DNA of 64,000 nucleotides from Algimonas porphyrae (GTDB lineage Bacteria; Pseudomonadota; Alphaproteobacteria; Caulobacterales; Maricaulaceae). Location of the stretch: NCBI RefSeq assembly GCF_041429795.1, contig NZ_CP163424.1, positions 2,916,001 through 2,980,000 of the forward strand. Reading direction: 5' to 3'. A model generated the notes under the pieces. That model did no database searches, was not told where the DNA came from, and worked only from the letters and a program-made list of their open reading frames with translations. Position numbers and translations under genes: made by a program. Shown here piece after piece: positions 57,488 to 61,534 of the stretch (its first letter is position 1; every line of letters begins with the position of its first letter).

Positions 57488-57516
57488 TTGACGCACCAAT
57501 CTAATCGTGGGATTTA
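57488..57516 (+). promoter_or_regulatory. Candidate promoter of cysD, possibly leaderless
   Basis: TTGACG (57488-57493), a 17-base spacer and GATTTA (57511-57516). A start site about 7 bases downstream would coincide with the ATG at 57523, giving a leaderless mRNA. No Shine-Dalgarno is present upstream of that ATG, which fits. Confidence 0.4.
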
Positions 57517-57522
57517 TCCCAC
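57507..57522. promoter_or_regulatory. 16-base palindrome touching the cysD start codon
   Basis: GTGGGATTTATCCCAC, two perfect 7-base arms around TT, ends at the base before the ATG and covers the candidate -10 (57511-57516). A protein dimer here would block both RNA polymerase and translation start. Likely ligand: the N-terminal domain of CysD itself or another regulator (inference). Confidence 0.5.
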
Positions 57523-58626
57523 ATGGATACACATACACTTCTTACTGCGCTCGACGACTTTTCCGTTCGCTCTGGTCAGTCCATCTCAACCGTCTCGCGC
57601 AAGCTGTTCAATGACGGGAAAACGGTTGCGCGTTTGCGCGACGGTGGACAGCTGACGCCGCGCACATTGGACCGGGCGCAGATGCGGTTGGCAGAGCTTG
57701 AGCGCGAACTGGCGGGACCGTTGGGGCTTGACATGACCCATCTTGACCGACTGGAAGCCGAGAGCATTCACATTATCCGCGAAGTCGTGGCGCAGTGCGA
57801 TAACCCGGTTATGCTCTATTCCGTCGGAAAGGATAGTTCCGTCATGCTGGAACTGGCCGTGAAGGCGTTCTATCCGTCGCCTCCACCTTTTCCCCTTCTG
57901 CATGTGGACACGCGCTGGAAGTTCAAGGAGATGTACGAGTTCCGTGATCGGCGCGCCCGTGAAGTCGGCATGGACCTTATTGTCCATGTCAATCCCGACG
58001 CCGTTCGCGACGATGTCGGCCCGTTCAGAAACGGATCGGCTGAACATACGCACATCACCAAAACGATCGGTCTGAAACAGGCCCTCGACGCCGGTCAGTT
58101 TGATGCCGCTTTTGGCGGGGCGCGACGCGATGAGGAAAAAAGCCGGGCCAAGGAGCGCATCTTCTCCTTCCGCAATGCTCATCATCGCTGGGATGCGAAG
58201 AACCAGCGCCCTGAATTGTGGGACATTTACAATGCGCGCGTGAAGCCGGGCGAAAGCATGCGGGTGTTTCCGATCTCCAACTGGACCGAACTCGACATCT
58301 GGCAATATATTCACCGCGAGAACATCCAGATCCCGGATCTCTATCTGTCCGCCGAGCGACCCGTCGTGCAGCGCGATGGCATATGGTTCATGCGCGATGA
58401 TGACCGTATGCCGCTGGAACCGGGAGAAACGCCCGAGATGCGATCCGTACGATTTCGCACATTAGGGTGCTACCCGCTGACCGGCGCGGTCGAGAGCGAA
58501 GCCGTAACACTCGAACAGGTCATTCAGGAAACGCTACTGGCGACCACGTCCGAGCGCCAGGGCCGGGTCATCGACTCGGATTCGGGCGCATCGATGGAGC
58601 AGAAGAAAGAGGAGGGGTATTTCTGA
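57523..58626 (+). CDS. cysD: Sulfate adenylyltransferase small subunit CysD with N-terminal HTH-like extension
   Basis: Makes APS from ATP and sulfate with CysN. 367 residues; the CysD core starts at Met 71 ([19 protein letters not shown]), with PP-loop SVGKDSS at 100-106 and the conserved [17 protein letters not shown] later; that part is about 297 residues, the usual length. Residues 1-70 are extra: [20 protein letters not shown] and [19 protein letters not shown] look like the small helix-turn-helix domain of stand-alone alphaproteobacterial proteins. No stop separates the two parts. The ATG 57523 has no ribosome site but sits on a palindrome; 57733 has a weak one. The stop overlaps cysNC. 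Confidence 0.85.
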
Positions 58627-60563
58627 TGGCCCACCATGACCCCCTCATTGCCGAAGATATTTCGGCCTATCTGTCCGCTCAGGAGCGCAAGAGTTTTCTG
58701 CGCGTCTTCACCTGCGGATCGGTCGACGACGGCAAGTCGACCCTGATCGGGCGGCTGCTCTATGATTCCAAGCTGATTTACGAAGATCAGATGGCCGCGA
58801 TCGAGAAAGATTCCAGAACGTCCGGAACTACGGGCGAGAAACCTGATCTCGCCTTGCTGGTGGACGGGCTGGCGGCAGAGCGCGAGCAAGGCATCACTAT
58901 TGATGTCGCCTACCGCTTCTTTTCGACCGACAGCCGCAAATTCATCATCGCCGATACACCCGGTCATGTGCAGTATACGCGCAACATGGCGACTGGCGCG
59001 TCGACGGCAGATGTCGCGGTTCTGCTGATCGACGCCCGGTACGGTGTGGTCGAGCAGACGCGCCGTCATGCCTTCATCGCCAGCCTGCTGGGCATCCCTC
59101 AGGTCGTGGTTGCTGTAAACAAGATGGATCTGGTCGATTTCGATCAGCAGAGCTTCAACGATATTGATGTCTCCTTCCGTCAGTTCGCAAGCGATCTGCA
59201 TTTCGCGGACATTATGACGATCCCGGTTAGCGCATTGGACGGCGATAATGTGACGACGCCATCGGACAGAGCCGATTGGTATAAGGGACCGACATTGCTC
59301 GACTTCTTGGAAACCGTCGATGTCGACCGGCAATCGCTGGAAGCGCCCTTTCGTCTGCCCGTGCAATGGGTCAACCGGCCCAATCTCGACTTTCGCGGAT
59401 TTTCCGGCACGATCGCGTCCGGCACAGTCTCCAAGGGACAAGAAATTATCGCTCTGCCGTCCGGCAAACGGTCGCGGGTCAAGGATATCATCCTCTACAA
59501 GGATCATCTGGAGCATGCGCGGCAGGATCAGGCGGTGACACTGACGCTCGAAGACGAAATCGATATTTCGCGCGGCGATATGCTCTGCAGTACGGACCAT
59601 CCGGCGGATGTCGCGGATCAGTTCCAGGCGCATCTGATCTGGATGGACGAGGCCAAACTGTTTCCGGGACGGCAATATATTATTCGCACGGCCAATATGA
59701 CGGTCTCCGGCTCGGTCACTGCTCTGAAATATCGCATCGACGTGGACGATTTTTCCGAAGCCGCGGCCAAGACGCTGGAGCTCAACGAAATCGGCGTCAT
59801 CACCCTGTCTCTGTCGCGCTCGATCCCCTTCGATGCCTATGGCAATAACCGCAAGACCGGCGCTTTTATCGTCGTCGACCGTCTGACTAATCATACTGTC
59901 GGCGCCGGTATGATCGATTTCGCCCTGCGACGCGCCAAGAACATCGTGCGCCAGGATCTGGTCGTAAACCGGACTGCGCGGGCGGCCCAGAAAGGCCAGC
60001 AACCCGCCATTCTCTGGTTCACGGGCCTGTCGGGCTCCGGCAAGTCGACCATCGCCAATCTGGTCGATGAAGCACTCTTCGAACGGGGGCACCATACCTA
60101 TACGCTGGACGGCGACAATGTTCGTCATGGCCTGAACCGCGATCTCGGCTTTACCAAGGAAGACCGGATCGAGAATATCCGTCGCATCGGCGAAGTCGCC
60201 AAGCTGATGGGCAATGCCGGGTTGATCGTGATGTGCAGCTTTATCAGCCCCTACCGCGCGGAACGGGACATGGTGCGCGACATGTTGGGCGAGGACGAGT
60301 TTTTCGAAATCTTCGTCGATACGCCGCTGGAAATCGCCGAGAAGCGTGACGTCAAAGGCCTCTACAAACGCGCCCGCGCTGGCGAGATCAAGAACTTCAC
60401 CGGGATCGATTCCGAATATCAACCACCGGAGCAGCCTGATTTGCGGATCGACACGACAGCACTTTCGCCAGAGGAAGCGGCGGACGCCGTTCTGGATCTT
60501 CTCCGCTCACGCGGACGACTGGACGATCCATCTGGACAGATGCGCGACGGCGGAGGCATCTGA
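58626..60563 (+). CDS. cysNC: Bifunctional CysN / APS kinase (CysNC, NodQ-type)
   Basis: 645 residues, two enzymes in one chain. The GTPase half has [36 protein letters not shown] and NKMDLV and drives CysD. The C-terminal APS kinase (from about residue 455) has [32 protein letters not shown] and a [18 protein letters not shown] stretch and makes PAPS. ATG 58626 overlaps the cysD TGA (TGATG) and has GAGGAGGGG upstream. PAPS feeds either sulfate reduction or sulfation; cysH is not in the window. Confidence 0.95.
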
Positions 60564-61534
60564 TGGCCGATTACGACCTGTTCAATGGCGATGCGGATGG
60601 CATCTTTTCCCTGGTGCAGCTCAGGCAGGTCGAGCCACGGCTCGAGGCCTTGCTGGTGACGGGTGTTAAACGCGACATCAGACTGTTCCCGCGTATCGCC
60701 GACCGGGTGCAGGTGGGAGACCGCATCACCGCGCTCGACATCAGCATGGCCAAGAATATGGACGGCCTTCACAAGGCGCTCACGGCAGGCGCAGACATCT
60801 TTTATGCTGACCATCACCAGACTGGCGATATCCCGGATGATCCAGCCCTGTTCGCCCTCACCGACATGTCCAGGGAAACCTGCACAGCCAACCTGATCGA
60901 CCGTCATCTCGACGGTGCGAAGGCGGCTTGGGCGGTCTGCGGTGCCTATGGCGACAATTTCCAGTCACTGGCTCAAGCCATCGCAGAGCGGCACGGAATG
61001 AACCTACCTTTGGGGCGATTGCGCGAGTTGGGCGAACTGGTGAATTATAATGCTTACGGGCTGAGTCTGTCCGATCTGCATTTTGACCCGGCCGAGCTGT
61101 ATCGCATCTTGTTGACTTATCCGGGCCCCGTGGCCTTTCTGGATGATGACCATCCGGCATTCGCCACGTTGCAGTCGGGATATGCGTCCGATTGGGATGT
61201 AGCGCAAAAAGCGCGCGAACTGGATATTTCCGAGGCTGGACACGTTCTGTCCCTGCCGGCTGGGCCTGCATCCAATCGGATCAGCGGCCTGTTCGGCAAC
61301 GCACTCGTCGCAGAGGATCCCGGACAGGCCTTCGCCATACTGACGGAAATCGCGGACGATCCGCCGGCCTATCGCGTCTCGATCCGGGCCCCGCGCAGGC
61401 GAGACAGCGGATCGGCGGCGACTTTGGCAAACCAATTCGGCGGCGGGGGGCGCGCCGCAGCCGCCGGCATCGATAGCCTGCCCGACGCCGATCTACCCGC
61501 ATTTATCGATCAGTTCCGGGCGACGTTTGCGTAA
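60563..61534 (+). CDS. DHH-family phosphoesterase, candidate PAP phosphatase
   Basis: A 323-residue DHH/DHHA1 protein. NGDADG (8-13) and ADHHQTGD (DHH at 83-85) are the metal-binding motifs; GAYGDN (about 127-132) supplies a later Asp. The DHHA1 segment reads FGGGGRAAAAG (about 292-301), where NrnA-type enzymes usually have GGGHxxAAG, so His is replaced by Arg. The ATG at 60563 overlaps the cysNC stop, so it belongs to the sulfate-activation operon. NrnA-like DHH enzymes hydrolyse pAp, the by-product of PAPS use; that role here is inference. Confidence 0.8.
   Translation: MADYDLFNGDADGIFSLVQLRQVEPRLEALLVTGVKRDIRLFPRIADRVQVGDRITALDISMAKNMDGLHKALTAGADIFYADHHQTGDIPDDPALFALTDMSRETCTANLIDRHLDGAKAAWAVCGAYGDNFQSLAQAIAERHGMNLPLGRLRELGELVNYNAYGLSLSDLHFDPAELYRILLTYPGPVAFLDDDHPAFATLQSGYASDWDVAQKARELDISEAGHVLSLPAGPASNRISGLFGNALVAEDPGQAFAILTEIADDPPAYRVSIRAPRRRDSGSAATLANQFGGGGRAAAAGIDSLPDADLPAFIDQFRATFA

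Follow-up and report, generated by a model that had tools for sequence, protein, structure and literature searches.

In the alphaproteobacterium Algimonas porphyrae, the open reading frame (ORF) at 57523-58626 (+) of the window, the 64,000-nucleotide stretch of DNA that was analysed, is a real fusion of a helix-turn-helix (HTH) domain to an ordinary CysD, the small subunit of ATP sulfurylase. The most probable explanation, held here with considerable confidence, is that a Cro-type phage repressor was captured by cysD together with its operator, which would make HTH-CysD a trigger enzyme that represses cysD-cysNC. Sequence comparison shows that the fusion is conserved and that domain and palindrome are associated, both at cysD and elsewhere (other genes, phages).

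The ORF encodes 367 amino acids: the Cro-like HTH domain (57523..57714, +; residues 1-64), a short linker placed by alignments (57715..57732, +; residues 65-70) and CysD (57733..58626, +; residues 71-367 plus the stop). According to the alignments, the linker is longer and rich in Ala and Pro in several relatives from the Parvularculaceae. The CysD part was recognized by the NCBIfam models TIGR02039 (E = 4e-146) and PRK12563 (E = 2e-156), which start at residue 70 or 74 and run to 367, and by PDB 1zun, of which residues 25-325 of chain A align with residues 71-367 of the query (E = 1.7e-132). The standard CysD of 1zun matches only from residue 71, and the HTH domain has no counterpart there. 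By model and 1zun match the catalytic domain (residues 70/71-367) is complete. As in the standard sulfate-activating complex, cysD is followed by cysNC (58626..60563, +), which encodes the GTPase large subunit fused to an APS kinase (Pfam GTP_EFTU and APS_kinase) and whose start overlaps the cysD stop. The start of another ORF (60563..61534, +) overlaps the cysNC stop in turn, as if it were the third gene of a sulfate operon. It resembles the DHH family (Pfam DHH, E = 5e-4) with 20.7 bits, under the curated cut-off of 28.1, and a role in pAp handling can be guessed at.

The sequence-only reading had claimed 70 in-frame codons ahead of M71 (57733), and these are indeed present. It would have given up the fusion as an artefact had relatives started CysD at the 57733 ATG behind a conserved ribosome site and shown either no conservation of the first 70 codons or a frameshift in them. 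The extension was found to be both coding and conserved, so this objection falls and an artefactual start can be ruled out. Between the window and one relative (L004), divergence within the extension is highest at third codon positions (0.54 vs 0.20 and 0.11). CysD matches came from 55 of 60 relatives (a number that counts the genome itself), and in 26 of the 55 the alignment begins at residue 16 or earlier; 39 aligned N-domains share 11 invariant columns. Many fused relatives have L in place of M71, which means that the 57733 ATG is no conserved start codon. When named genomes were scanned with the peptide [SA]RK[LIV][LF]NDGK, which biases the result toward the subgroup of HTH-CysD, 93 relatives were obtained, and a CysD match was found downstream of the domain in all of the best 80 of these 93. 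Among those 80, the genera Algimonas, Hellea, Litorimonas, Robiginitomaculum and Parvularcula are represented, as well as Marinicaulis, Amphiplicatus, Sphingorhabdus, Pacificimonas and others. A CysD tree was built from 24 unfused sequences and 45 fused ones, the latter being every second of 91, less one short row. The fusion requires three changes on this tree, in which several nodes are weak; a single gain with two later losses may account for the three.

Structure prediction for the extension, which the sequence-only reading had taken for an HTH-like domain, agrees with that proposal. AlphaFold2 run on the N-domain alignment gave a four-helix HTH domain (helices 3-17, 21-29, 34-39 and 46-64; mean pLDDT 92.9), and in the full-length model, a monomer with a moderate overall pLDDT of 74, residues 1-60 reach 87-91. 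The top Foldseek match in the PDB is 1pra, the DNA-binding domain of the 434 repressor (probability 0.95, E = 0.23, TM 0.53); 434 Cro ranks third, and C.Esp1396I and HipB follow lower as weak matches. The predicted fold is similar to that of Cro and CI of 434 and lambda, whereas the identity to 1pra is 15% and residues 1-70 score below the cut-off of every Pfam family. None of the 207 PDB matches falls below E = 0.001, and neither does any of the viral Foldseek matches, which include HTH and repressor proteins. No convincing sequence relative was found in the PDB (best E = 0.44). Membership of the LacI family (PF00356) was rejected, the match scoring 11.9 bits where the curated cut-off is 27. 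The profile of phrog_7669, a family of phage proteins to which no function is assigned, matches the N-domain with E = 8.6e-7. Together, prediction and homology to phage proteins in the cro position support the assignment of residues 1-64 as a DNA-binding-type HTH domain.

The candidate operator of this domain is GTGGGATTTATCCCAC (57507..57522, +), which reads GTGGGA-TTTA-TCCCAC and abuts the start codon. It is, as had been claimed, a perfect 7+7 palindrome around TT with its final base just before the ATG. This is the sole occurrence of GTGGGA-N4-TCCCAC in the 3.17-Mb genome. Three palindromes with one mismatch occur in the same genome, against three for the reversed control, every one within an ORF, and they were taken for chance matches. 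A pattern scan of 99 genomes of the family, some of them already found in the search that yielded the 60 relatives, revealed the perfect palindrome in 28; HTH-cysD lies directly downstream at 26 of these 28 loci, and the other two have no cysD there.

A larger comparison was based on 93 non-redundant domain cores among the loci collected. In 91 of them the expression for the CysD motif matched within the ORF of the core (L139 and L168, without such a match, were dropped). Within 310 bp before the core motif, a site matching at least 10 of 12 positions was found in 89 of the 91 HTH-CysD loci, which are related by kinship rather than independent draws, and 34 of these sites are perfect. Parvularcula lutaonensis (9/12) and P. 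maris (8/12) are the loci without a good site, and the shuffle control reached at least 10/12 in 0.66% of 4550 cases. The sequence-only reading had suggested looking for the palindrome in relatives with and without the extension, and the two groups differ: not one of 24 unfused cysD genes has a site of at least 10/12 (410 bp searched, best 9/12), the sample being the fetched copies, with weaker-scoring second copies and fragments outside it. The upstream genes vary among the 12 HTH-cysD loci listed, and no column beyond the palindrome exceeds 0.59 across 90 aligned proximal sites, which argues that the palindrome is not leftover ancestry. A neighbouring gene as its owner was set aside, as the upstream genes differ across these 12 loci. 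At one locus (L076), the sites may be shared with a divergent ORF, a weak match to the CysD query that by eye resembles CysH. By comparison, then, the palindrome and the HTH domain appear to belong together at cysD. Since CysD carries a DNA-binding-type domain and the palindrome would be its operator, autoregulation of the cysD operon is suggested; of the earlier proposal of an enzyme acting on its own operator, the association is borne out by comparison, and from it we infer the binding itself.

The sites have further features in common. The A+T content of their four central bases is 81%, compared with 54% upstream. Two or more sites of at least 9/12 are present in 68 of the 91 loci, although chance matters at this threshold, a best score of 9 being reached in 9% of shuffles. 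The second sites lie 35-128 bp further upstream of the proximal palindrome. For 66 pairs, the Rayleigh R is 0.45 at 10.5 bp, with a best period of about 11.4; over 34 different spacings, p is 0.016 (0.04-0.06 under stricter cut-offs), uncorrected for kinship. Helical phasing of the paired sites is therefore best called suggestive.

How the palindrome is placed relative to the start of the gene was also compared. Of 88 loci with a start codon picked by rule (2 of 90 had none), 35 have the end of the palindrome at most 1 nt from that codon; the distance is 2-5 nt in another 8 and 6-76 nt in the remaining 45. These distances fit an operator lying over the start region. No Shine-Dalgarno-like stretch is seen by eye ahead of the ATG at 57523, in line with the earlier observation. 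The leaderless expression proposed from the sequence alone is partly supported by these distances; a leaderless cysD mRNA is plausible, perhaps in some species. The same reading had named a promoter, TTGACG-N17-GATTTA (57488..57516, +), with TTGACG at 57488-57493 and GATTTA at 57511-57516. The letters are there, but as a sigma-70 promoter it is a weak candidate: a consensus promoter scan found no site, GATTTA is identical to TATAAT at two of six positions, and only 6 of 90 loci have a hexamer at this offset (-19) that agrees with TTGACA in at least 5 of 6 positions, so that there is no conserved -35 element.

A tblastn search of phages found relatives of the domain, all without a protein name, among those of Agrobacterium, Rhizobium, Rhodovulum, Rhodobacter, Aurantimonas, Acetobacter and other hosts. 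In Agrobacterium phage Rivra, the domain gene is the first rightward gene beside CI, the cro position, and is followed by a tRNA gene and then CII. Its product matches phrog_7669 with E = 1.9e-22, and GTGGGATGCGTCCCAC is located 12 bp before the first matched residue, within the first codons of the annotated CDS. Two perfect GTGGGA-N4-TCCCAC sites 1211 bp apart lie on both sides of cI in Rivra (L367, 3745-4956), and six IMG/VR loci (L262, L270, L301, L305, L312 and L321) have a palindrome pair 1208-1211 bp apart. Of 12 annotated phage loci, five have a divergent neighbour whose annotation reads CI, Cro/CI, phage repressor or transcriptional regulator; in six this neighbour is unnamed, and in one the record ends. 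Five divergent neighbours were scanned, giving Peptidase_S24 in Rivra, L254, L332 and L317, and HTH_3 in L269. GGGA-N4-TCCC is present within 200 bp in two of the 12 loci; of the other ten, six have other palindromes and four have none under the criteria used.

Viral contigs were also scanned for AGTGGGA-N4-TCCCACT alone, which gave at least 120 loci. Among the matches listed, the domain starts no more than 300 bp downstream and in the right orientation in 14 of 120, and in the other 106 no domain was found nearby; in so large a viral collection, chance matches to the palindrome are to be expected. The DNA of the 120 listed loci (1.09 Mb) contains 15 domain matches, 14 of which are the ones just downstream of the palindrome. 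Nine of these 14 loci form one Rivra-like family (63-100% identical), L269 and L338 are nearly copies of each other, and L317, L319 and L361 are separate from the rest. Judged from gene order and sequence, relatives of the domain occupy the cro position of alphaproteobacterial temperate phages, some with the same operator. HTH-CysD and phrog_7669 are thus linked by the profile match and by an operator shared with Rivra and found beside the domain in the 14 viral loci, whereas the phrog_7669 members are small stand-alone phage proteins in the records examined and the domain of HTH-CysD is fused to an enzyme. The reading of HTH-CysD as a captured Cro-type repressor would, if true, also suggest a function for phrog_7669, which is listed as of unknown function.

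The domain is also attached to other proteins. Within the order, 55 of 249 genomes gave a match, and within the class 28 of 289; smaller groups were searched too, and in genomes of other orders the domain was found in 5 of 24, 1 of 11, 1 of 2 and 2 of 9. Its carriers other than CysD are NadE, a methyltransferase-like protein, AMP nucleosidase-like and fumarase-like proteins and small stand-alone proteins. In the NadE fusion (L192; G061:C3, domain start near 128486; Pfam NAD_synthase and CN_hydrolase), CAAGGGATTTGTCCCTTG lies about 45-50 bp upstream, and the other genome of that genus gave no match. At 16 loci (L193, L195-L200, L202, L210-L212, L238-L241 and L243) the motif FRF[YF]DNRQKY follows the domain. 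By eye, this protein looks like a SAM methyltransferase; a Pfam scan of one member gave no match. GGGA-N4-TCCC is found upstream in 5 of the 16. It is absent upstream of L213 and L215, whose fusion partners look like an AMP nucleosidase and a class II fumarase, respectively. Altogether, 10 of 43 non-CysD domain loci have GGGA-N4-TCCC within 300 bp upstream, against 0.39 expected and none for the reversed pattern (HTH-CysD was excluded; L204, L225 and the duplicate L237 were left out). The ten include relatives (L212, L238, L239 and L241 from one order; L233 and L242) and so represent, by judgement, about six lineages. As the core is lacking within 300 bp upstream at the other 33 of the 43, and at 10 of the 12 phage loci, specificity seems to differ between branches of the family. 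The genome of A. porphyrae itself has a distant small stand-alone relative (L236, G000:C1:2016956-2017111) without GGGA-N4-TCCC upstream. A search for plasmid homologues of the N-domain found none at E = 0.01.

Several explanations of these findings have to be weighed. The palindrome could act in the mRNA, as a hairpin at the 5' end through which translation is controlled, the HTH domain being incidental; it could form a stem, and in the window it sits at the start codon. In 153 sites selected at 10/12 or better, a cut-off that limits double changes, 34 one-sided arm changes would even keep a G-U pair in RNA, but 117 one-sided changes break the pair, and the double changes are four compensated ones, confined to the outermost pair, and four uncompensated ones. 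Arm changes being mostly one-sided, a DNA site read by protein is favoured over RNA, and a regulatory RNA element is disfavoured by the scarcity of compensatory change. Moreover, the sequence itself is fixed, accompanies the HTH domain at other genes and in phages, and is repeated 35-128 bp further upstream, all of which makes a hairpin extremely improbable. It is very unlikely, too, that a separate transcription factor owns the palindrome while the N-domain serves, for example, as a protein contact in the sulfate-activating complex. In phages one would expect CI to use this operator as well, which speaks for such a factor, but the palindrome accompanies the domain in unrelated contexts and was found at none of the 24 unfused cysD genes compared; as the genome has a single palindrome, a separate regulator would have one target only.

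If HTH-CysD itself binds, it might activate cysD, or mainly tether the enzyme to DNA, and the multiple sites in 68 of 91 loci could serve activation or looping. This is very unlikely, since at the 35 loci with the closest placement the bound protein would cover the start region, and the domain gene of Rivra holds the cro position. Cro proteins are chiefly known as repressors. With the palindrome at the start of its own gene, the enzyme most likely represses that gene.

Repression by HTH-CysD might work as follows. A Cro-type, lambda-repressor-like domain would have been captured, operator included, from a gene like those in the cro position of alphaproteobacterial temperate phages. Two such domains within a CysD or CysDN oligomer would bind GTGGGA-N4-TCCCAC at the cysD start and block transcription of cysD-cysNC, and thereby the first enzyme of sulfate assimilation would limit its own synthesis. 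We infer DNA binding, repression as its sign, oligomerisation, the direction of capture and coupling to a signal from the comparisons above. By analogy with BirA and PutA, the likeliest signal would be CysD that accumulates at low demand, either free (in excess, without CysNC) or loaded with APS. Bridging of the paired sites by the CysD oligomer is suggested, the phasing test being weak. More broadly, phage Cro-type repressors with GGGA-N4-TCCC as their operator may form a portable autoregulation cassette that was attached several times to the N-termini of unrelated alphaproteobacterial metabolic enzymes, a proposal whose chances we hold to be about even. Its hosts would be CysD, NadE and the methyltransferase-like protein, and possibly the fumarase-like and AMP-nucleosidase-like proteins; in several cases the operator would have been brought along, each enzyme would repress its own operon, and the CysD oligomer would bridge its paired sites.

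Metabolic enzymes with a DNA-binding function of their own that control genes of their pathway are known: PutA, BirA and NadR are described in this way in two papers (PMC8249747, PMC6978683). The first of these names five trigger enzymes of E. coli (BirA, NadR, PepA, PutA and PyrH), and CysD is not among them. HTH-CysD combines a catalytic domain, a DNA-binding-type domain on the same polypeptide and a conserved candidate operator, so on the best reading of its sequence it would be a variant of this known kind. PutA is described as binding only the putA-putP spacer, to which the single genomic site at HTH-cysD is comparable. Unlike in PutA, BirA and NadR, the domain of HTH-CysD is common to phage proteins in the cro position and other enzymes. 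There is also a likeness to the 434 and lambda regulators, Rivra having a cI-cro-cII-like order with sites flanking cI. Agrobacterium phage Atu_ph08 carries a relative of the N-domain, and a homologue of certain XRE factors is named in this same phage in PMC10688885. Links to these XRE factors and to the Caulobacter GTA repressor RogA (PMC11150451) were considered and not adopted. No description of the HTH-CysD fusion or its operator was found in the titles and the beginnings of abstracts listed, a body of literature with subscription journals mostly outside it, and novelty is unproven.

The phage link is the point that goes beyond the sequence-only reading of HTH-CysD. If the proposal is true, a phage repressor has been domesticated as the means by which the enzyme committing ATP to the activation of sulfate limits itself, and a direct path would lead from the regulator of a mobile element to metabolic control. 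With one genomic site, the system would be a clean one of one protein, one operator and one operon. Because the domain recurs on further enzymes, partly with the operator core, these would offer a natural series for how an enzyme turns into a regulator and for which signal goes from the active site to DNA.
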